64,000 nt of DNA, from positions 1-64,000 of the forward strand of contig JACVCJ010000013.1 in the NCBI GenBank assembly GCA_016742095.1, in the 5' to 3' direction. This stretch comes from Bacteroidia bacterium. Lineage in GTDB: Bacteria; Bacteroidota; Bacteroidia; CAIKAF01. The notes beneath the pieces are model-generated. The model worked only from the letters and a program-made list of their open reading frames with translations, was not told where the DNA came from and did no database searches. The position numbers and the translations under genes were made by a program. This document shows positions 2,694 through 14,562 of the stretch, piece by piece (the first letter of the stretch is position 1; every line of letters starts with the position of its first letter).

Positions 2694-2714
2694 TATTTAG
2701 AAGGGTTCTAAATA
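2694..2714. promoter_or_regulatory. Palindrome upstream of the act promoter
   Basis: TATTTAGAA-ggg-TTCTAAATA, a perfect 9-bp inverted repeat with a 3-bp centre, about 80 bp before the expected act transcription start. A distal activator or operator site is plausible. No T run follows, so it is not a terminator. Confidence 0.4.
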
Positions 2715-2724
2715 GGCTCCGGGC

Positions 2725-2740
2725 TACCTACATTTAGGTA
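2725..2740. promoter_or_regulatory. Palindrome abutting the act -33 element
   Basis: TACCTA-catt-TAGGTA, a perfect 6-bp inverted repeat centred about 51 bp before the expected start and ending 7 bp before the -33 TTG, a typical place for an activator. Confidence 0.4.
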
Positions 2741-2746
2741 TTTTAT

Positions 2747-2777
2747 TTTGGCAGTTCCCTTCAGGTCGCTAATTTTG
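2747..2777 (+). promoter_or_regulatory. Promoter of the act-cox operon
   Basis: TTTG (2747-2750) and a perfect TAATTTTG (2770-2777) are 19 bp apart, the full Bacteroidota housekeeping promoter. Transcription should start near 2784, leaving a leader of about 45 nt before actA. A third palindrome, GTGTTA-T-TAACAC at 2790-2802, lies at the head of that leader. Confidence 0.7.
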
Positions 2778-2827
2778 CCGCGGTTTAACGTGTTATTAAC
2801 ACACTTTCGACATAATTTTAAACGTAT

Positions 2828-4195
2828 ATGATTCACGTTTTCAACAGAGTAAGTAAAATTTTTGCCGCACTTTTCATGGTATTTATGACCGTGGGAGGCA
2901 GTTTTGCGCAAGACGGGGAAGCCCTCTTCAAAAGTAACTGTGCCCGTTGTCACTATGCCAGCGACAAAAAACTGGTGGGTCCGGGTCTGGCCGGAGTTCG
3001 TTCGCGTTGGAGTTCAGAAGACAACCTGCATGCATGGATCGTTAACTCTACGGATTACCTGAAAACGGGTGATTCTTACGCAACAGACCTGTTCGAGAAG
3101 TTCAACAAGTCGGTGATGCCGGGCTTTCCCAACCTGAAAAAAGAAGAGGTTACCGCTATACTCGACTATATCGATAAAGCCGGTGCAGCCCCTGCAGGCG
3201 GAGGTTCTGATTCTACGGCCGTAGCCGGCGGCGGAGCGGGTGCCCAGGGCGGCGACAGCGGCAATACACTGATGTACGTACTTATCGTGGTGATACTGAT
3301 CCTGTCGGTACTGATCTACGCACTGTATAAAATTTCCGTTTCGCTTACCGAACTGGTGAAACAACGCGAAGGTGATGGTTCTACGGACGACCGTACCTTC
3401 CTCGACAAAGCGGAAGACTGCTTCAGGGCCTCTAAAAAATGGGCCGGAGAGAACAAGGCCATCGTAGGTGTTGCCATTTTCGTAGGTCTGTGTTTCGTAC
3501 TGAAACTGGCCTGGGACGGTCTGATGGGTATTGGTGTTTACCAGGGCTACCAGCCGCACCAGCCGATCAAGTTCTCGCACGCCAAACACGCCGGAGAACT
3601 GAAGATCGCCTGTGAATACTGTCACACGGGTGTTAAAGAATCACGTCATGCCACCATTCCTTCTTCCTCTACCTGTATGAACTGTCACAAGGCAGTAAGC
3701 GAAGGACCGCTGTACGGCAAGAACGAGATCGCCAAGATCTACGCCTCTATCGGTTTCGACCCGAATAAAGGTGCTTACATCGACAACTACAACAACCAGG
3801 ATAAAGAACAGGTACTGGCCGTATACGAAGAATGGCTGGGCGGCGATAACGACGCTTTCCGCGCCGTGGAACAATACGTTCAAAAACCGATCGACTGGGT
3901 ACAGATCCACAAACTGCCCGACCACGCTTACTTCAACCACGCGCAGCACTACCGTGTAGGCGGCGTGGAGTGCCAGACCTGCCACGGTAAAGTGGAAGAG
4001 ATGGAAGAAGTGAAACAGTTTGCCCCGCTCACCATGGGCTGGTGTATCAACTGTCACCGCGAAACCAAAGTGAAATTCGAAGAAAATCCATACTACGACA
4101 AATTACATGACTACCTGGCCGAGCGTTACAAAAAAGGCGACCAGTTTACCGTGGCCCGTATCGGTGGTCTGGAGTGTGGTAAATGTCATTATTAA
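2828..4195 (+). CDS. actA: Alternative complex III subunit ActA, multiheme cytochrome c with extra N-terminal heme domain
   Basis: Heme-bearing periplasmic subunit of the quinol:cytochrome c/oxygen oxidoreductase that replaces bc1 in Bacteroidota. Residues 1-28 form a signal peptide (GGSFAQ then DGE). A monoheme cytochrome domain follows (CARCH 38-42, candidate Met ligand M98), then a Gly/Ala-rich linker, a membrane segment near 149-169, a second hydrophobic segment near 210-230, and the classic pentaheme part (CxxCH at 262, 283, 382, 406 and 450). That makes six CxxCH motifs, one more than the pentaheme core. A stretch at about 320-350 lengthens the spacing between hemes 3 and 4. First gene of the operon, 27 bp before actB. 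Confidence 0.93.
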   Translation: MIHVFNRVSKIFAALFMVFMTVGGSFAQDGEALFKSNCARCHYASDKKLVGPGLAGVRSRWSSEDNLHAWIVNSTDYLKTGDSYATDLFEKFNKSVMPGFPNLKKEEVTAILDYIDKAGAAPAGGGSDSTAVAGGGAGAQGGDSGNTLMYVLIVVILILSVLIYALYKISVSLTELVKQREGDGSTDDRTFLDKAEDCFRASKKWAGENKAIVGVAIFVGLCFVLKLAWDGLMGIGVYQGYQPHQPIKFSHAKHAGELKIACEYCHTGVKESRHATIPSSSTCMNCHKAVSEGPLYGKNEIAKIYASIGFDPNKGAYIDNYNNQDKEQVLAVYEEWLGGDNDAFRAVEQYVQKPIDWVQIHKLPDHAYFNHAQHYRVGGVECQTCHGKVEEMEEVKQFAPLTMGWCINCHRETKVKFEENPYYDKLHDYLAERYKKGDQFTVARIGGLECGKCHY

Positions 4196-4222: not shown

Positions 4223-7200
4223 ATGAGTAATCAAAAGAAATACTGGAAAGGTCTCGAGGAGTTAAACGAAACCAAAGCCTTCGTTAACCTTCGCGACAAC
4301 GAATTTGCCGAAGAACTTCCGATGGAGGAATTCCTGGGCAATGAAAAACTGGGTGAAACCAAAACAGGTCGCCGCGATTTCCTGAAATTCCTCGGGTTCA
4401 GCGTAACTGCCGCCGCTGTCGCAGCTTGCGAAACGCCGGTGCAGAAAGCGCTTCCGTATGTTATAAAGCCGGAGAACATCACACCGGGTGTTCCCAACTA
4501 TTACGCCACTACTTTCTTCGATGACGACGATTATGCCAACGTGCTGGTGAAAACCCGCGAAGGCCGTCCCATCCTCATTGAAACTTCCCTGCCTTCGGTG
4601 GCCGGGCAGCGTGGTATCTCCGCCAAGATCAGCGCCTCTGTACTGAGCCTGTACGATGGCAAGCGTACCAAAACGGCGATGAAGGCCGGCAAAGAGATCG
4701 GCTGGAATACAGCGGATACAGAGATCGGTAAATTACTGCGTGCTATTTCTGACGCCGGTAAAAAGACCGTAGTCCTTACCTCAACGATCATTTCTCCGTC
4801 TACCCGCAAGGCCATTGCTGATTTTACAGCGAAATTCCCGGGCGCGGAACATGTACAATACGATCCCATTTCTTACTCGGCCCTGCCGAAAGCCAACCAG
4901 GCCGTGAACGGTAAAGCGGTTATCCCGACGCACCGTTTCGAGAACGCCCTGGCCATCGCTTCTTTCGGCGCCGATTTCCTGGGTACCTGGCTGGACAGCA
5001 ACGCTTTCTCTGTAGGGTACTCGAAGAACCGCGATCCCAAAGGCAAAATGAACCGTATGTTCGCCTTTGAATCGGTAATGTCGCTCACCGGTGCCAATGC
5101 CGATTACCGCACGTCCGTAAAACAGTCGGAGATCGCCCTGGCGCTGATCCACCTGTATAACAAGGTGACCGGCGCTTCGGTACAGGTGCCTGCCCTGCCG
5201 TACGCCGAGCGTATCGCCAAATGTGCCGAGCACCTGAAGGCCAACCGCGGCAAAGCCCTGGTAGTTTGTGGTCTGAACGACGTGAACGCACAGATCATCA
5301 CGGCCGAGATCAACAAGGCACTGGGCGCCAACGGTACCACCCTCGACTTTAACACGCCGCTGTATACCAAACAGGGTAACGAGCAGCGTACCGAGCAGGT
5401 ACTGGCCGGGATCGCTTCCGGAGCCGTTCAGGGTGTGATCTTCTACCAGGCTAACCCGGTGTACAATGCCGCCAATGGCGACAAATGGGCCGAGGCCATC
5501 AAAAAACTGAAACTTTCGGTATCTTTTGCCGGCGACCGCGACGAGACCGCTGCCCTGGCAACCTATACCTTACCCGATCATAATTACCTGGAAAGCTGGA
5601 ACGACCACAATCCGTACGAAGGTTTCTACAGCCTTACCCAGCCTACCATCCACCCGCTGTTCGACACACGTCATGCACAGGAGAACTTTATCGTTTGGGC
5701 CGGTTTAGCCAGTCGCAGCGATAAGAACTCTACCGCATGGAGAGAATATATCAAGGAGAACTGGCGTAGCACGCTGTTCGGTCGTCAGTCGCAGCACATG
5801 CTGTTCGACGATTTCTGGAACTACAGCGTACACGACGGTGTATTCACCACAACGGCTGCTCCGGTAATTGCCCCGGTTGCTGCTGCCGCTCATGCAGACG
5901 CACATGCAGCCCCTGCTGCCGAAGCTGCCGCCCCGGCCCCGGCCGCCGGAGATGTATCTTCTGCCGCCGCTGCCCTGGTAAAAACCTACGGCGGTGCCAA
6001 AGGTGTGGAAGTGGTGCTGTACCAGAAAACCGGCATCGGTTCCGGAAGTCAGGCGGCAAACCCCTGGCTGCAGGAGTTCCCCGACCCGATCTCACGTATC
6101 ACCTGGGACAACTACATTACCATGTCGCTCGAAGACATGGAGGCACAGGGCTTCAGCACCTATATCGGTCAGAACGACCCTGCCGACCTGGCTATCCTGA
6201 AAGTGAACGGTAAAGAGATAAAACTGCCGGTAGTTGCTTCTCCGGGTCAGAAATCAGGTACCGTAGGCGTAGCTGTAGGTTATGGCCGTAAAGTATTTAA
6301 AGACGATGCTGCGGTGGGTGCCAATGCCTTCCCGCTGGCCACACTGGCAGGCGGCGAATGGAAAGGCTTTGCCTTCGGCGGTACCATCGAAAAAACGGGC
6401 GAGACCTATGAAATGGGCGCCACGCAGACCCACCACACCATGATGGGCCGCGATATCGTAAAAGAAACGTCGTACAAGCAATTCAAAGCGGATCCTGCAT
6501 CCGGCAACCATATTCACGTATTCCATACCGGTTTCGACAAGATCAAAGGCAAGGAGACCCACGGGCATCTTTCCGGCGACGAGGCCGATTTCTGGAAAAA
6601 ATTCGATCGTCCGAACCACAACTGGAAGATGTCGATCGACCTGAATGCCTGTAACGGTTGCGGCGCCTGCGTAATTGCCTGTCATGCCGAGAACAACGTT
6701 CCGGTGGTAGGTAAGGACGAGATCCGCCGTGTACGCGATATGCACTGGCTGCGTATCGACCGTTACTACAGCAGTGATGCTTCCAAAATGGACATCAAGA
6801 ACGCCAAAGGTCTGGGCGATAACCTGAGCGTGCTGCACCAGGCCGAGGTCCCGTCTGCCGAGCCGCAGGTGGTGTTCCAGCCGGTAATGTGCCAGCACTG
6901 TTCACAGGCCCCCTGCGAAACGGTTTGCCCGGTACTGGCTACCACACACAGCAACGAAGGTCTCAACCAGATGACCTACAACCGTTGTATCGGTACCCGT
7001 TACTGCGCCAACAACTGTCCCTATAAAGTACGCCGTTTCAACTGGTTCAAATACCACGACAACGATAAGTTCGACTTCTACATGAACGACGACCTCGGTA
7101 AAATGGTACTGAACCCGGATGTGACCGTACGCGGACGTGGTGTAATGGAAAAATGTTCTATGTGCGCCCAGCGTATCCAGTACGGTAAACTGGAGGCTAA

Positions 7201-7525
7201 AAAAGAAGGCCGCCGCCCGAAAGACGGTGAGATCAAAATGGCCTGTCAGCTTGCCTGCAGCACCAATGCCATTAAATTCGGCGACGCCAACGACGAAGCT
7301 TCGGAGATCCTTGCCCTGGGTAAAGAGAGCCGCGCTTACCGTCTGCTGGACGAAGTGGGTACCGAACCGAACGTATTCTACCATGTAAAAGTACGCAACG
7401 TGGAAGAGGAGTACGATCACGGTCACCACGCCGGCGGTCATGCCGAAGGTCACGGCGCAGAGCACGGTGCCGCCCACGGAGGCGAAGCCGCTCATGGTAA
7501 AAAAGAAGAGCACAAAGCACATTAA
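4223..7525 (+). CDS. actB: Alternative complex III subunit ActB, molybdopterin-oxidoreductase-like/Fe-S fusion
   Basis: Large extramembrane subunit that carries the iron-sulfur clusters of complex III. A Tat-like leader sits behind a ~45-residue N-terminal extension (GRRDFLKFLGFS at 49-60, then VAAC with Cys69 as a possible lipid site). The first ~700 residues resemble molybdopterin oxidoreductases, a fold that in ActB proteins holds no molybdenum. The last third is a ferredoxin-like unit with four cysteine groups: CNGCGACVIAC (from C810), CQHCSQAPCETVC, CIGTRYCANNC and CSMC with a later C-x3-C. An Ala/Pro-rich linker near 550-585 separates blocks of the first domain. The C-terminus is very His-rich (about 1063-1100) and could bind metal. 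At 1100 residues it is a full-length B1-B2 fusion. Confidence 0.93.
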   Translation: MSNQKKYWKGLEELNETKAFVNLRDNEFAEELPMEEFLGNEKLGETKTGRRDFLKFLGFSVTAAAVAACETPVQKALPYVIKPENITPGVPNYYATTFFDDDDYANVLVKTREGRPILIETSLPSVAGQRGISAKISASVLSLYDGKRTKTAMKAGKEIGWNTADTEIGKLLRAISDAGKKTVVLTSTIISPSTRKAIADFTAKFPGAEHVQYDPISYSALPKANQAVNGKAVIPTHRFENALAIASFGADFLGTWLDSNAFSVGYSKNRDPKGKMNRMFAFESVMSLTGANADYRTSVKQSEIALALIHLYNKVTGASVQVPALPYAERIAKCAEHLKANRGKALVVCGLNDVNAQIITAEINKALGANGTTLDFNTPLYTKQGNEQRTEQVLAGIASGAVQGVIFYQANPVYNAANGDKWAEAIKKLKLSVSFAGDRDETAALATYTLPDHNYLESWNDHNPYEGFYSLTQPTIHPLFDTRHAQENFIVWAGLASRSDKNSTAWREYIKENWRSTLFGRQSQHMLFDDFWNYSVHDGVFTTTAAPVIAPVAAAAHADAHAAPAAEAAAPAPAAGDVSSAAAALVKTYGGAKGVEVVLYQKTGIGSGSQAANPWLQEFPDPISRITWDNYITMSLEDMEAQGFSTYIGQNDPADLAILKVNGKEIKLPVVASPGQKSGTVGVAVGYGRKVFKDDAAVGANAFPLATLAGGEWKGFAFGGTIEKTGETYEMGATQTHHTMMGRDIVKETSYKQFKADPASGNHIHVFHTGFDKIKGKETHGHLSGDEADFWKKFDRPNHNWKMSIDLNACNGCGACVIACHAENNVPVVGKDEIRRVRDMHWLRIDRYYSSDASKMDIKNAKGLGDNLSVLHQAEVPSAEPQVVFQPVMCQHCSQAPCETVCPVLATTHSNEGLNQMTYNRCIGTRYCANNCPYKVRRFNWFKYHDNDKFDFYMNDDLGKMVLNPDVTVRGRGVMEKCSMCAQRIQYGKLEAKKEGRRPKDGEIKMACQLACSTNAIKFGDANDEASEILALGKESRAYRLLDEVGTEPNVFYHVKVRNVEEEYDHGHHAGGHAEGHGAEHGAAHGGEAAHGKKEEHKAH

Positions 7526-7557: not shown

Positions 7558-8958
<1,401 letters not shown>

Positions 8959-8976: not shown

Positions 8977-9504
8977 ATGAGCAGCAAATTAATATATGCG
9001 GTATATGACGATCCGGATACTACGGTAGAAGCCGGACGTATTGTGACCGATGCGGGCATCAAAGTGAACACGGTGTATTCACCCTTCCCCGTACACGGTA
9101 TTGACGATGCCATTAAACTGCCCCGTACACGTATCTCGGTGGCCGCCTTTCTGTTCGGCGCCATGGGTACTTCGTTCGCAGCCTGGATGACCTGGTACAT
9201 GCTTATTTATGACTGGCCTATGAACGTGGGTGGTAAGCCTTCGTTCAGCTTTGCAGAGAACTTCCCGTCCTTTGTGCCGGTGATGTTCGAGCTGACCATC
9301 CTGCTGGGTGCGCACGGTATGATCTGGACCTTCTTCTTTATCAGCGGAATTCTTCCGGGAGCAAAGAACAAGAACCCCGATCCGCGTACGACCGATGATA
9401 AGTTCATTATCGAGATCGATCCGTCGAAACAGGCGCAGAAAGAAGACGAAATTATCGGCATGCTGAAAAATGCAGGCGCTATTGAAATTAACCGCGGAGA
9501 ATAA
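8977..9504 (+). CDS. actD: Alternative complex III subunit ActD (DUF3341)
   Basis: Small membrane subunit of complex III, 175 residues. The N-terminal soluble part contains the DUF3341 pattern (VYDDPDTTVEAG, then VYSPFPVHGID), and two membrane helices follow (about 50-75 and 105-130), with a soluble tail. Known ActD proteins lie beside ActC in the membrane and have no redox centre. Its place between actC and actE is the standard gene order. Confidence 0.92.
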   Translation: MSSKLIYAVYDDPDTTVEAGRIVTDAGIKVNTVYSPFPVHGIDDAIKLPRTRISVAAFLFGAMGTSFAAWMTWYMLIYDWPMNVGGKPSFSFAENFPSFVPVMFELTILLGAHGMIWTFFFISGILPGAKNKNPDPRTTDDKFIIEIDPSKQAQKEDEIIGMLKNAGAIEINRGE

Positions 9505-9510
9505 GGAGGA
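9503..9510 (+). promoter_or_regulatory. Strong Shine-Dalgarno site of actE
   Basis: AAGGAGGA nine bases before the actE ATG, overlapping the actD stop. Near-perfect SD sites are unusual among the genes of this window, so actE may be translated more strongly than its neighbours. Confidence 0.6.
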
Positions 9511-9519
9511 AGCGCAATT

Positions 9520-10197
9520 ATGAAAAAGAACTATATACAAATAGCCAGAAAAGGTGCTTTGCTGATCGGAGCGGCCGTTGTTGTTGCCTCCTGTTCCCAA
9601 AAAGATCCGCAGAGCCCGGGATTTGAGTATATGCCCGATATGTACCGCTCGGTAGGTTACGACGCCTACCAGGCAAACCCGAACTTTGCCAACGGTACCA
9701 CGGCCCAGAACATGGTAGACGGTACCATGCCCTACCAGGCCGACCGTTCTAAAATTTACAACGTACTGCCGTATCCCTTCCCGAACACGAACGAAGGATA
9801 TGAAGCGGCCGGACTTACCCTCAAAAACCCGCTCCCGTATTCAGAAGCGAACCTGAAGCAGGGCGAAGTGCTGTTCCAGACCTTCTGCCAGCACTGCCAC
9901 GGTGCCAAAGGTATGGGCGACGGTGTGGTAGGTACCAAGAACCCCGGACTGATCCCGCCGGCATACAACTCGCCCCAGCTGGTGAGCCTGCCCGAAGGAA
10001 AGATCTTCCACTCCATTACCTGGGGTAAGGGTATGATGGGCGCACACCAGTACCAGATCAGCAAGCTGGACCGCTGGAAACTGGTACACTATGTACAGAG
10101 TCTCCAGAAAACACCTGCTGCCGGCGGAGCAACGGCCGACAGCACGGCTAAACCCGCTGCGGACACTACCGCTGCGAAAAAGGTAGCCATGAAATAA
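9520..10197 (+). CDS. actE: Alternative complex III subunit ActE, monoheme cytochrome c lipoprotein
   Basis: Periplasmic monoheme cytochrome that passes electrons out of ActA. The N-terminus is a lipoprotein signal (VVASC, Cys25), so it is membrane-anchored. CQHCH (123-127) binds heme and a Met in GKGMMGAH is the likely distal ligand. A ~95-residue stretch between the lipid anchor and the heme domain should wrap along the complex. The C-terminus is Ala/Thr/Lys-rich and looks disordered. A strong SD site precedes it. Confidence 0.93.
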   Translation: MKKNYIQIARKGALLIGAAVVVASCSQKDPQSPGFEYMPDMYRSVGYDAYQANPNFANGTTAQNMVDGTMPYQADRSKIYNVLPYPFPNTNEGYEAAGLTLKNPLPYSEANLKQGEVLFQTFCQHCHGAKGMGDGVVGTKNPGLIPPAYNSPQLVSLPEGKIFHSITWGKGMMGAHQYQISKLDRWKLVHYVQSLQKTPAAGGATADSTAKPAADTTAAKKVAMK

Positions 10198-10224
10198 TTT
10201 TTAGAAACGAACAATAGTATAACG

Positions 10225-11403
10225 ATGAAATACGAGTTCTCAGGAAAGTTGAAAATAGCGTCAATAGCAGCCACCGTTATCGGCCTGGTACTGATCTTAG
10301 TTTCATTCTTTATATACGGCGATAATATTACCCGTGTGTGGGCCAACCTGCTGGTTACCTCTTTCTTCTTCACAGGTGTTGCGGTGGCCGGTATCTTTTT
10401 CGTGGCCGTGAACCTGGTAGGTGAGGGCGGATGGTACACCGTTTTTAAACGTATACCCGAAGCCATGAGCACCTTCCTGCCTTTCGGTATGTTCTTCCTG
10501 CTTATTGTAGTGGTGGCCGGTATGCTGGGCGCACACGACATCTATAAGTGGATGAACCCCGAAATTGTTGCCCAGGACGAACTTATCCAGGGAAAAAGCG
10601 GTTACCTGAACAACACGTTCTTCCTGATCCGCTTTGCCTTCTATGCCGCCATATGGATCGGTTTTGCCTTTATGCTGCGTAAAATGTCGCTGCGCGACGA
10701 TATGCTGGGCACCTATGAGCACTACATCAAGTCGCGTAACCGTGCGGCCACCTTCCTGGTGCTGTTCGCCGTTACTTCGTCCACATCGGCCTGGGACTTT
10801 ATCATGAGCGTAGACGTACACTGGTTCTCTACCCTGTTCGGCTGGTATACCTTTGCCGGTTACTTTGTGTCGGCCATTGCCATTATGCTGGTGATCGTAC
10901 TGCACCTGAAACGCAACGGATTTATGCCTACTGTGAATATGAGCCATATCCAGGACCTGGGTAAATTCCTGTTCGCCTTCTCTATCTTCTGGACATACCT
11001 GTACTTCTCGCAGTTCCTGCTGATCTGGTACGCCGATATGCCCGAAGAGATCGTATATTACATCGAGCGTTACGATACAAGCTACCGCCCCTGGGTGCTG
11101 GTGATGGTCGTACTGAACCTGGTACTGCCCCTGCTGGTGCTGATGACCCGCGACTCAAAGCGCAATGCCACCACGCTTACGATCATATCACTGCTGGTTG
11201 TGGCAGGTCACTATATGGACCTCTTCCAGATGGTTATGCCCGGTGCCGTAGGTGAAAAATGGGGCTGGTCTTTCCCCGAAATAGGTGCCTTATTATTTTT
11301 TGCAGGATTGTTTACCTTTGTAGTGTTAAATACGCTGACGAAAGCGGCTGTTGAACCAGCTAAGGGAACCTTCCTCGAAGAAAGTAAACATCACGCAATA
11401 TAA
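10225..11403 (+). CDS. actF: Alternative complex III subunit ActF
   Basis: Integral membrane subunit, 392 residues with about ten membrane helices, a distant NrfD-like paralogue of ActC. It is the second membrane scaffold of complex III. Visible marks are AWDFIMSVDVHWFSTLFGWY (about 190-209) and FWTYLYFSQFLLIWYADMPE (about 254-273), both typical of ActF. It follows actE by 27 bp and precedes coxB by 30 bp, which links complex III to the oxidase and fits the known act-cox supercomplex. Confidence 0.92.
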   Translation: MKYEFSGKLKIASIAATVIGLVLILVSFFIYGDNITRVWANLLVTSFFFTGVAVAGIFFVAVNLVGEGGWYTVFKRIPEAMSTFLPFGMFFLLIVVVAGMLGAHDIYKWMNPEIVAQDELIQGKSGYLNNTFFLIRFAFYAAIWIGFAFMLRKMSLRDDMLGTYEHYIKSRNRAATFLVLFAVTSSTSAWDFIMSVDVHWFSTLFGWYTFAGYFVSAIAIMLVIVLHLKRNGFMPTVNMSHIQDLGKFLFAFSIFWTYLYFSQFLLIWYADMPEEIVYYIERYDTSYRPWVLVMVVLNLVLPLLVLMTRDSKRNATTLTIISLLVVAGHYMDLFQMVMPGAVGEKWGWSFPEIGALLFFAGLFTFVVLNTLTKAAVEPAKGTFLEESKHHAI

Positions 11404-11433: not shown

Positions 11434-12708
11434 ATGAGCCTTATAACGATTCTTTTCGTCCTTGTTTCAGCACTTACGCTGGTTACGGTTGTAAAACTGT
11501 TGAGCGTAAGCAACCTGGTGAATCGTGTCCGCGGACGTAAACCATACGAAATTACCGAAGGTGAGAATAACATAAACGCACTGATGTGCCTGTTCATGCT
11601 GTTCTTCGGGTATGCTATTTACTTCTACTTTCACTTTAAATACGTGACCACAGGTCAGCTGCTGCCGGCTTCGGCCTCCCTGCACGGCGAGGAGATCGAT
11701 ACCCTGCAGACGGTGTCTTTCGTGATCATTTCGATAGCCTATCTGCTGGTACAGCCTGTACTGTGGTACTTTGCCTTCCGTTACCGTTACCGCAAAAATG
11801 CCAAGGCTTTCCACTATTCGCACAACAACCGCCTGGAAATGGTATGGACCATCATCCCGGCCCTGGTGTTCTGCTCCCTGATCTTCTACGGTCTCAAGAT
11901 CTGGAACGATATCTTCAGCACAGAGATCGAAGGTGAAAAAATTACGATGGAACTCTACGCCAAACAGTTTGAGTGGGCCGCCCGTTATGCCGGCGCCGAT
12001 AAAGAACTGGGCGATGTGAACTATACCATGGTCAGTGATAAGAACGCCCTGGGTATGATCACCCCGGAAACGATCGATTCGCAGCTGGTACTTATCAACC
12101 GCAAACGTAGCGAGGTACTCGCCGCCCTGGCCGCTTTCCCCACACCGGAAGAACTGCCGGAACTGGAAAAACAGAGAGACCGCCTGAACCACCAGCTGAA
12201 AATGGTATCCGGCTTCAAAAAGAAGAACGAAACGGCCAAATACCTGAAAGGCCACGACGATATCATCATTCCTTCCGGCGGTGAGATCCACATACCGGTG
12301 AACCGTCCGATCGAACTGAAAATGCGTTCGCAGGACGTGATCCACTCGGCGTACCTGCCGCACTTCCGTGTGCACATGTACTGCGTACCGGGTCTGGCCA
12401 CATCGTTCACCTTTGTGCCTACCATCACTTCACAGGAAATGAAGGCCAAACTGAACAACGAAAAATTCGATTACCTGGTTTACTGTAACAATATCTGCGG
12501 CAGTGCCCACTTCAACATGCAGATGAAGATCGTGGTGGAGACCGAAGAGCAGTACAACCGCTGGCTCGAAAAACAACAGACATTCGCCCTGGCTTTCAAG
12601 GGTGAGGCTCCTGCCACAAAAGCTTCTCCGGCGCCTGCCGATTCGGCTAAGACCGACTCTGCTGCCGTTCCTGCCGCCGCACCCAAGAAAGTTGCTAAAC
12701 TGAAATAA
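11434..12708 (+). CDS. coxB: Cytochrome c oxidase subunit II (CuA subunit)
   Basis: Takes electrons from cytochrome c through the binuclear CuA centre. Three hydrophobic segments lie in the first ~160 residues and the cupredoxin domain follows. The CuA ligands C351, C355, H359 and M362 lie in YCNNICGSAHFNMQM; the usual Glu of this loop is Asn, which should not matter because that residue binds through its backbone. The distal His is expected in VIHSAYLPHF. A charged, helical insertion of ~70 residues (about 205-275) separates strands of the cupredoxin domain. The C-terminal ~40 residues are Ala/Pro/Lys-rich and probably disordered. Confidence 0.93.
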   Translation: MSLITILFVLVSALTLVTVVKLLSVSNLVNRVRGRKPYEITEGENNINALMCLFMLFFGYAIYFYFHFKYVTTGQLLPASASLHGEEIDTLQTVSFVIISIAYLLVQPVLWYFAFRYRYRKNAKAFHYSHNNRLEMVWTIIPALVFCSLIFYGLKIWNDIFSTEIEGEKITMELYAKQFEWAARYAGADKELGDVNYTMVSDKNALGMITPETIDSQLVLINRKRSEVLAALAAFPTPEELPELEKQRDRLNHQLKMVSGFKKKNETAKYLKGHDDIIIPSGGEIHIPVNRPIELKMRSQDVIHSAYLPHFRVHMYCVPGLATSFTFVPTITSQEMKAKLNNEKFDYLVYCNNICGSAHFNMQMKIVVETEEQYNRWLEKQQTFALAFKGEAPATKASPAPADSAKTDSAAVPAAAPKKVAKLK

Positions 12709-12735
12709 TAAAATTACCTGTTACTATAAGAAATA

Positions 12736-14562
12736 ATGTCCATGGATAGTACACATAACCTTTCGGCAGAAAACGCACATGTAACGCATGATGCACATGC
12801 TCATGACCACCATGAGCACAAAGAGTCCTTCATTACGAAGTACGTTTTCAGTCAGGACCATAAAATGATCGCGAAGCAGTTCCTCGTTACGGCTATTTTC
12901 ATGGCCGTGGTGGCGTTCATGCTCTCGCTGTTCTTCCGTCTGCAGCTTGCCTGGCCGGGAGAGTCATTCAAGATCTCGGAAATTTTCCTGGGTAAATGGG
13001 CTGAAGGCGGTCTGCTGGACCCGAACTTCTACCTTTCGCTGGTAACCATGCACGGTACCCTGATGGTATTCTTCGTGCTTACGGCCGGTCTTACCGGTAC
13101 CTATGCCAACCTGCTCATTCCGCTTCAGCTGGGTGTACGCGATATGGTGAACCCGTTCATGAACATGCTTTCTTACTGGTTCTTCTTTGTTTCCAGCGTA
13201 CTGATGATCGTTTCCCTGTTCATCGAGAGCGGTCCCGCCTCTGCCGGCTGGACGATCTACCCGCCGCTTTCCGCACTGCCGGAAGCGATCCCGGGTTCCG
13301 GTCTGGGTATGACCCTCTGGCTCATCGCTATGGCCCTGTTCATCATTTCTTCGCTGCTGGGTGGTCTTAACTACGTTGCCACCGTGATCAACTGCCGTAC
13401 AAAAGGTATGAAAATGACCCGTATGCCGCTTACCGTTTGGACATTTATGACGGCGGCCATCCTCGGTATCCTTTCTTTCCCCGTACTGCTGGCCGCGGCC
13501 CTGCTGCTGATCTTCGACCGCAGCTTCGGAACGGCGTTCTTCCTTTCGGATATCTTTATTTCCGGTCAGGCCCTGGAGCAAACCGGCGGTTCGCCCGTAC
13601 TGTTCCAGCACCTTTTCTGGTTCCTGGGCCACCCCGAGGTATACATCGTACTTCTGCCGGCCCTGGGTATAGCCTCTGAGATCATCTCTACCATGAGCCG
13701 CAAGCCGATCTTCGGTTACCGCGCCATGGTGGCCTCGATCCTGGCCATCGCCTTCCTGTCGTTCATCGTATGGGGGCACCACATGTTCGTAACGGGTATG
13801 GACCCCTTCATCGGTTCTATCTTTACCTTTACCACACTGCTTATCGCCATTCCGTCGGCCATTAAAGCCTTCAACTATATTACCACGCTGTGGAGAGGTA
13901 ACATCATCTTCTCCCCGGGTATGCTTTTTGCCATCGGTATCGTTTCCCTGTTCATCTCCGGTGGTCTTACCGGTATCATCCTGGGTGACAGTGCGCTGGA
14001 CATCAACGTACACCACACCTACTTCGTGGTGGCCCACTTCCACCTGGTAATGGGTGTGGCCTCCCTGTTCGGTATCATTGCCGGGGTTTACCACTGGTTC
14101 CCCAAAATGTACGGACGTATGATGAACAATAAACTGGGTTATGTACACTTCTGGGTGACCTTTATCTGTGCCTACGGCGTATTCTGGCCGATGCACTACC
14201 TGGGTCTGGCCGGTGTACCGCGCCGTTACTATTCAAACACGGCCTTCCCGATGTTCGACCACCTGCAGGACCTGAACGTACTGATCACCATCTTCGTGAT
14301 CATCGGTGGTCTGGCTCAGGTTGTGTTCATCTTCAACTTCTTCTACAGCATCTGGAGAGGACCTAAAGCCCCGCAGAACCCATGGAAAGGTACTACCCTG
14401 GAATGGACAACGCCTGTGGAACATATCCACGGTAACTGGCCGGGCGATATCCCGGAAGTTCACCGCTGGCCGTACGATTTCTCCCTGCCGGGCGAAGAAG
14501 AGGATTTCATCCCTCAGAACGTTCCACTCCGTGACCACGAAAAAGCAAACGAACATCATTAA
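12736..14562 (+). CDS. coxA: Cytochrome c oxidase subunit I
   Basis: Catalytic subunit with heme a, heme a3 and CuB, which reduces oxygen and pumps protons. It has 608 residues and about 12 membrane helices. HPEVY (from H299) is the CuB His with its cross-linked Tyr, as in type-A heme-copper oxidases. VHHTYFVVAHFHLVMG carries the CuB and heme ligands near the C-terminal helices. The N-terminus is His-rich. The start could also be the ATG two codons later. It is the last gene of the operon; subunits III and IV are found on the other strand near 60 kb. Confidence 0.95.
   Translation: MSMDSTHNLSAENAHVTHDAHAHDHHEHKESFITKYVFSQDHKMIAKQFLVTAIFMAVVAFMLSLFFRLQLAWPGESFKISEIFLGKWAEGGLLDPNFYLSLVTMHGTLMVFFVLTAGLTGTYANLLIPLQLGVRDMVNPFMNMLSYWFFFVSSVLMIVSLFIESGPASAGWTIYPPLSALPEAIPGSGLGMTLWLIAMALFIISSLLGGLNYVATVINCRTKGMKMTRMPLTVWTFMTAAILGILSFPVLLAAALLLIFDRSFGTAFFLSDIFISGQALEQTGGSPVLFQHLFWFLGHPEVYIVLLPALGIASEIISTMSRKPIFGYRAMVASILAIAFLSFIVWGHHMFVTGMDPFIGSIFTFTTLLIAIPSAIKAFNYITTLWRGNIIFSPGMLFAIGIVSLFISGGLTGIILGDSALDINVHHTYFVVAHFHLVMGVASLFGIIAGVYHWFPKMYGRMMNNKLGYVHFWVTFICAYGVFWPMHYLGLAGVPRRYYSNTAFPMFDHLQDLNVLITIFVIIGGLAQVVFIFNFFYSIWRGPKAPQNPWKGTTLEWTTPVEHIHGNWPGDIPEVHRWPYDFSLPGEEEDFIPQNVPLRDHEKANEHH

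Follow-up and report, generated by a model that had tools for sequence, protein, structure and literature searches.

The act-cox operon, which encodes alternative complex III (ACIII) and a cytochrome oxidase, has a predicted Fur box upstream of its promoter. We think it quite probable that Fur acts from this box as a class I-like activator of the operon and likewise of sdhC, and that it represses the uptake, haem and SUF genes. The window, meaning the whole stretch of DNA that was analysed, is 64,000 nucleotides long. Bacteroidota have their own type of promoter, and many of them have ACIII in place of bc1.

The act-cox promoter and its three palindromes

The original prediction placed three palindromes around a promoter of the form TTTG-N19-TAATTTTG. 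All three are present with the arms and loops described, as are both promoter elements, which are separated by 19 nt (Table 1). The genes downstream were predicted to be act and cox genes, and they do encode ActA- to ActF-like proteins and cytochrome oxidase subunits, as identified by Pfam for the first three. A TTG at the -33 place is absent from some relatives. Palindromes 1 and 2 are both found upstream of the -33 element. Palindrome 1 ends 55 nt upstream of the -7 element, with its center at about -77 relative to the inferred start, and palindrome 2 ends 29 nt upstream of it, with its center at about -49.

Table 1. Features of the act-cox promoter region and operon (window coordinates)
Feature	Coordinates	Strand	Description
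Palindrome 1, predicted Fur box	2694..2714	.	TATTTAGAA-N3-TTCTAAATA, arms 9/9, loop 3
Palindrome 2	2725..2740	.	TACCTA-N4-TAGGTA, arms 6/6, loop 4; NarL-like 7-2-7 layout
Palindrome 3	2790..2802	.	GTGTTA-N1-TAACAC, arms 6/6, loop 1; not conserved
-33 promoter element TTTG (Bacteroidota type)	2747..2750	+	19 nt from the -7 element
-7 promoter element TAATTTTG (consensus TAnnTTTG)	2770..2777	+	Reference point for the spacing analysis
actA, multihaem cytochrome c subunit of alternative complex III	2828..4195	+	Pfam Cytochrome_C7, Cytochrom_C
actB, Fe-S subunit	4223..7525	+	Pfam Fer4 families
actC, NrfD-like membrane subunit	7558..8958	+	Pfam NrfD
actD, actE, actF, three ORFs	8977..11403	+	Assigned from gene order and by eye
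Cytochrome c oxidase subunit II- and I-like ORFs	11434..14562	+	Assigned by eye

The number of palindromes was compared with chance using a first-order Markov model and shuffles of the 323-nt intergenic region. With arms of at least 6 and loops of 0 to 8, three palindromes were observed and 1.34 were expected (P 0.153), and an arm of at least 9 occurred in 3.25% of the shuffles. By number alone, the three palindromes are not beyond chance, and the evidence that does go beyond chance is comparative. Since the count was not significant, conservation was used as the criterion instead.

In close relatives, palindrome 1 was conserved in full and palindrome 2 in part. The region had been predicted to be under layered control, with two activator sites and one repressor or leader element. 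The two activator sites are supported, since palindromes 1 and 2 are conserved, recur before other genes and lie upstream of -33, while the role given to palindrome 3 is not. Palindrome 3 was found in none of the 15 family relatives, where the best copies had 3 to 5 mismatches. It was rejected as a repressor or leader element, being unconserved and expected by chance, and is probably a chance occurrence.

On the other side of the intergenic region, a divergent XRE/S24 (LexA-like) repressor gene occupies positions 1671-2504 on the minus strand. Its leader (2483-2552) contains TGACA-N7-TGTCA and a second inverted repeat, TCGGAC/GTCCGA. These repeats are likely the gene's own operators, and its true start may be the second ATG.

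Palindrome 1 is a predicted Fur box

The Fur protein of Riemerella anatipestifer recognizes a 19-bp consensus, ATTTAGAATTATTCTAAAT, and gel shifts were reported with four promoters (PMC5609570). Binding of a Bacteroidota Fur to ATTTAGAATTATTCTAAAT is taken from this published work (PMC5609570). Palindrome 1 carries both arms of the consensus, ATTTAGAA and TTCTAAAT, at equal spacing, and is therefore a predicted Fur box.

The 3.7-Mb genome to which the window belongs was searched for further copies. It has one exact copy, in the window, three copies with one mismatch, none with two and two with three; the reversed control pattern matched once in all. The copies with one mismatch are located before three genes: an IscA/SufA-type gene with sufB after it, a SufE gene with a DUF59-like ORF (assigned by eye) after it, and the gene of a NarL-type response regulator. 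One of the copies with three mismatches is before sdhC and the other is before an outer-membrane efflux-type ORF. No uptake receptor was found among the genes preceded by the sites located in this genome.

Across 16 genomes of the family, 49 sites with at most two mismatches were found, compared to 10 for the reversed pattern, and 15 of the 16 genomes had at least one. Eight sites precede actA. Of the other 41, 33 are found before suf, sdhC, haem/iron uptake or response regulator genes, or are shared between such a gene and a divergent one. Outside the window's own genome, 30 of 38 non-actA sites were assigned, some of them common to a divergent gene: 11 to sufA/sufB, six to sdhC, three to HemS, three to the response regulator, two to FecA-like receptors, four to other TonB receptors and one to a periplasmic haem/iron-binding protein. 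The remaining eight had no assigned target or lay within genes (L088, L090, L091, L092, L097, L112, L113 and L121). Target genes were named mostly by eye from sequence, with Pfam run on examples.

A wider search covered 119 genomes of the class: exact copies of palindrome 1 were found in 20 of them (25 copies), and the reversed pattern in none. Seventeen of these loci were opened. Four were before sufA, and there was one each before sdhC, an actA-like ORF, a regulator gene, a FeoA-like ORF, a TonB receptor-like ORF and the gene of a T9SS-secreted protein; the other seven had no clear target.

In two genomes of one genus, paired exact Fur boxes 43-44 nt apart precede a lipoprotein gene (L326 1501-1564; L327 1501-1565). 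At L328 (1501-1521), an exact Fur box is found between an NqrA-like ORF (by eye, minus strand) and another gene, and a further respiratory complex may thus belong to the Fur regulon.

Box position at actA and sdhC

To score actA loci, a matrix was built from 33 non-actA sites, with a threshold score of 12. It was scanned on the window, 15 family loci and 80 named actA loci, and 94 loci remained after L142 and L143 were dropped as duplicates of L010 and L013. A box scoring at least 12 was found upstream of actA in 70 of these 94 Bacteroidota loci, the 80 named loci being the best of 588 candidates and an uneven sample. In the window, palindrome 1 scored 25.7 and the next best site in the 64 kb scored 3.6. 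The 24 loci under 12 include all eight of a Chitinophagaceae-like clade. Two loci had little upstream DNA, L194 with 153 nt and L181 with 286 nt.

Distance was measured from the end of the box to the start of TAnnTTTG, using a single -7 element per locus, the first one downstream, at both actA and sdhC. At actA, 36 loci had a distance of 43-46 nt and 30 had a distance of 53-56 nt, a total of 66 out of 70, which are not 66 independent events since the 44 and 54 spacing classes need only two changes on the ActA tree. None of the 70 loci fell at 47-52 nt. The remaining loci had distances of 65 nt (L169, again one helical turn off), 102 nt and 125 nt, and one had no -7. Among seven sub-threshold loci with a -7, five had it at 44-45 or 55 nt. 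A second -7 is found at 43 nt in L277 and at 46 nt in L278.

In several Saprospiraceae-type loci (L144, L145, L146, L154, L156, L162, L166, L183 and L218), a TGACA motif, often doubled, follows the actA -7. This motif may be a further operator or leader element.

For sdhC, the sample was spread evenly across the class. A match was found in 85 of 90 genomes, giving 85 upstream regions, with a second copy in G089 kept outside the count. The box was present in 32 of 85 regions, compared to 0 of 85 in both the reversed and the Markov controls; the other 53 had no box, and L238 was under the threshold. Of the 27 regions with both a box and a -7, 20 had offsets of 33-34 (eight), 43-45 (seven) or 54-55 (five). 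One other was at 25 and six were at 87-158, and five regions with a box had no -7. Within the family, the boxes are at 30, 31, 42, 43 and 44, with two of them at 30-31 and not at 33; the matrix itself included six family sdhC sites.

The spacings at actA and sdhC are steps of one helical turn. A phase test was conducted with 16 values in the range 25-70, one per family and position class; both range and grouping were picked by hand after seeing the data, and six far sites were left out. Phase concentration was R 0.90 at 10.5 bp, and none of 400,000 uniform simulations was as high (p ~2.5e-6 or less). When the period was allowed to vary from 8 to 13, none of 40,000 simulations was as high.

The other Fur-box genes (suf, hemS, the regulator and sufE), for which the nearest -7 was counted per locus, have a different layout. 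The box was at -42 to +12 in 18 of the 19 loci with a -7, where it covers the promoter or sits just behind it. One TonB-receptor site was at +53, and TAnnTTTG was missing in range at 9 of 28 genes. Due to these exceptions, a repressor layout is not established for all Fur-box genes.

When an activator contacts polymerase from a single face of the helix, its sites leave the promoter free and shift by whole turns. A class I-type layout of this kind is present at actA and sdhC, with the site upstream of -33/-35 and positions differing by whole helical turns. The free promoter and the whole-turn steps point to an activator contacting polymerase. We infer from these positions that Fur contacts polymerase, that it activates rather than represses, and that the iron-loaded form is the active one. 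Polymerase recruitment is one of the listed modes of activation by Fur (PMC3788343).

Repression is the best-known activity of Fur (PMC3788343). Fur could repress actA and sdhC too, or displace another regulator from upstream, with iron lowering the respiration genes; in the window, a second site is found between the Fur box and -33, open to competition by Fur. This seems unlikely to us. The boxes leave -33 and -7 free, and their helical steps relative to the -7 fit polymerase contact. There is also no ready explanation for shutting down iron enzymes when iron is plentiful, and in R. anatipestifer sdh goes down, not up, when iron is restricted (PMC5609570).

The regulator and the inheritance of the box

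Fur-family proteins (PF01475) were found in all 16 family genomes. The window's own genome encodes a Fur (L052:1447-1899; PF01475, 103 bits), and the solved proteins closest to it in sequence are Fur proteins. A second Fur-family protein of this genome is Zur-like, and its gene adjoins a ZIP-like transporter gene. In G007, which is 94% complete, sufA and a TonB receptor gene are preceded by boxes, and the sole Fur-family match is short and Zur-like; a Fur of this genome was likely missed in the assembly.

Another protein could bind palindrome 1 and control iron-using genes, either an Irr-like member of the Fur family or IscR/Rrf2. The ICE motif of alphaproteobacterial Irr shares its core with palindrome 1, a target set of suf, sdh and cytochromes is also compatible, and the window genome encodes three Rrf2 proteins. 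Nevertheless, we find this quite improbable. IscR/Rrf2 was rejected on its distribution, being over the cut-off in only 3 of 16 genomes (the window's own included) compared to sites in 15 of 16. No Irr appears to be encoded, with scores far under the cut-offs: on Irr models with cut-offs of 150 and 170, the own Fur scored 37.8-37.9 bits and the Zur-like protein 20.9 or less. Five genomes (G001, G003, G004, G012 and G013) have a single Fur-family match, of the long type, and uptake genes carry the box too.

Presence of the box at actA needs 10 changes on the ActA tree by a quick method. The tree and change counts were used since collapsing actA loci at 65% identity gave only three clusters, which is useless in AT-rich DNA. 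The small number of spacing-class changes would also be expected if the actA box served another gene or were a relic, its spacing kept through inheritance of the whole promoter block, but this is highly improbable given that the spacer sequences differ widely by eye while box and spacing persist, that L169 lies one further turn away, that separate families show equal steps at sdhC, and that most of the sub-threshold loci with a -7 have the same distances.

The preferred reading, then, gives Fur a probable dual role: it represses uptake genes, and it activates ACIII-oxidase and SDH directly. Iron-loaded Fur would bind palindrome 1 on a helix face that allows contact with RNA polymerase, and this contact would activate the ACIII-cytochrome oxidase operon in a class I-like manner. 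sdhC would be activated from boxes of the same helical phase, and iron/haem uptake and SUF would be repressed from boxes over or after their promoters. Iron shortage would open the repressed genes and deprive the respiratory complexes of their activator. The iron-sparing response could thus be read from the position of the box, with no small RNA required.

Published expression data bear on direct activation. In R. anatipestifer, sdh falls under iron restriction both in the wild type and in a fur deletion, and so does a quinone-binding cytochrome c oxidoreductase subunit (PMC5609570), which we take for ActC. The fur mutant fails to support simple activation. This data set is a weak test because canonical Fur-box genes stay iron-responsive in the mutant; for example, hmuR still responds to iron in the deletion (7.89 against 8.44; PMC5609570).

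Palindrome 2 and a candidate response regulator

Among the 16 family loci, seven have palindrome 2 at actA with at most one mismatch. The 78 non-family actA loci all had at least 3 mismatches. The window's own genome has two exact copies. By number, the motif is not enriched, as only two of the 16 genomes had more copies at one mismatch than the reversed control gave, in a scan whose places were listed as far as G011. Of 18 exact copies examined away from actA, nine are before the gene of a T9SS-secreted protein, which is followed by a TonB receptor gene where read, six are before a PD40 beta-propeller gene, and three are before neither. The case for palindrome 2 is therefore made by shared gene context and not by copy number. 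HmuY was rejected as a name for the secreted protein, since Pfam yields a T9SS tail only.

From palindrome 2 to the -7, the distance is 29-30 nt at actA of the window, L005, L006 and L007, 44-47 nt before the secreted-protein gene (56 in L139) and 38 or 51 nt before the propeller gene. These distances are not all in one helical phase. At L010-L013, a copy of palindrome 2 is upstream of the Fur box. No -7 was found at the palindrome 2 loci L133, L136 and L140.

The consensus of the NarL heptamer is TACYYMT (PMC4886647). Read as TACCTAC-AT-TTAGGTA, palindrome 2 fits it at six of seven positions per heptamer, and the seventh differs. Palindrome 2 resembles a NarL site and is perhaps a candidate site for the Fur-controlled response regulator. 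Orthologues of this regulator were found in 13 of 16 family genomes (E 1e-30). A Fur box is directly before the regulator gene in G000, G002, G003, G004 and G012. In G006, G008 and G011, the box precedes a haem-degradation gene that lies ahead of the regulator gene. There was no Fur box within 1.5 kb of the regulator in G005, G007, G009 and G010, or in the 0.6 kb examined in G014. In an alignment with NarL, the receiver domain of the regulator has Gly in place of the Asp that is the phosphorylation site of NarL. Motif and regulator do not always occur together: G001 has palindrome 2 and no orthologue at E 1e-30, and G014 has the regulator and a degenerate palindrome 2 at actA.

G116 encodes a protein homologous to the secreted one (30% identity, E 4e-53), with a Fur box directly before its gene (L337 1501-1521). 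This fits a shared iron role with the palindrome 2 target, and a change of regulator at this homologue is possible.

Two further loci were seen. At L106 (2961-3021), a Fur box is common to a haem/iron-binding protein gene and a divergent PD40 beta-propeller gene, and the palindrome 2 of the propeller gene is degenerate. At L141 (3001-3016; C58 of the window's own genome), palindrome 2 with one mismatch is found 146 nt before an aconitase-like ORF (by eye), an Fe-S enzyme.

A two-step circuit can be drawn from these data, which we offer tentatively and regard as somewhat doubtful. Fur at about -77 would activate ACIII-oxidase directly and would also repress the atypical NarL-type regulator, which lacks the phospho-aspartate, so that palindrome 2 at about -49 would lose its binder. 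As a relay for iron starvation, the regulator would drive the T9SS-secreted protein with its TonB receptor and the beta-propeller protein, and it would set respiration during iron shortage. The position of the Fur box in helical steps would then be a phylum-wide code for activation or repression.

Comparison with known systems

R. anatipestifer Fur is the closest comparison, with the same 19-bp ATTTAGAATTATTCTAAAT in the same phylum and with uptake genes and HmuY/HmuR as targets (PMC5609570). When iron is short, SUF rises in this organism, and SDH and the quinone-binding cytochrome c oxidoreductase subunit fall (PMC5609570). It differs in that Fur is treated there as a repressor and that the sections consulted give no spacing rule (PMC5609570). 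Table 5 of that report is without an actA or sdhC box, and its abstract gives the E. coli consensus (PMC5609570).

In Caulobacter crescentus, iron-loaded Fur represses uptake and directly activates sdh, nuo and acnA (PMC6120978, PMC3751524), as proposed here for uptake and SDH. This organism is an alphaproteobacterium, and neither ACIII among the targets nor a helical spacing series was met in the parts of these reports that were used (PMC6120978, PMC3751524).

The layout of palindrome 2 is like that of the 7-2-7 NarL activator sites at the E. coli ogt promoter, which are at -44.5, -67.5 and -77.5 (PMC7419079). NarL senses nitrate via phosphorylation (PMC7419079), whereas the candidate regulator here has Gly for Asp. 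SsoR of Shewanella oneidensis is an orphan, phosphorylation-independent response regulator that is repressed by Fur and activates siderophore synthesis, but it is still able to be phosphorylated (PMC12442407).

A regulator site for ACIII was not found in the portions of the literature searched, in which ACIII itself was scarcely used as a query. If the proposed role of Fur is true, palindrome 1 would be a named regulator site for ACIII. Respiration would be spared at low iron without a small RNA, and the spacing rule might separate activated from repressed Fur targets in genomes of the phylum.
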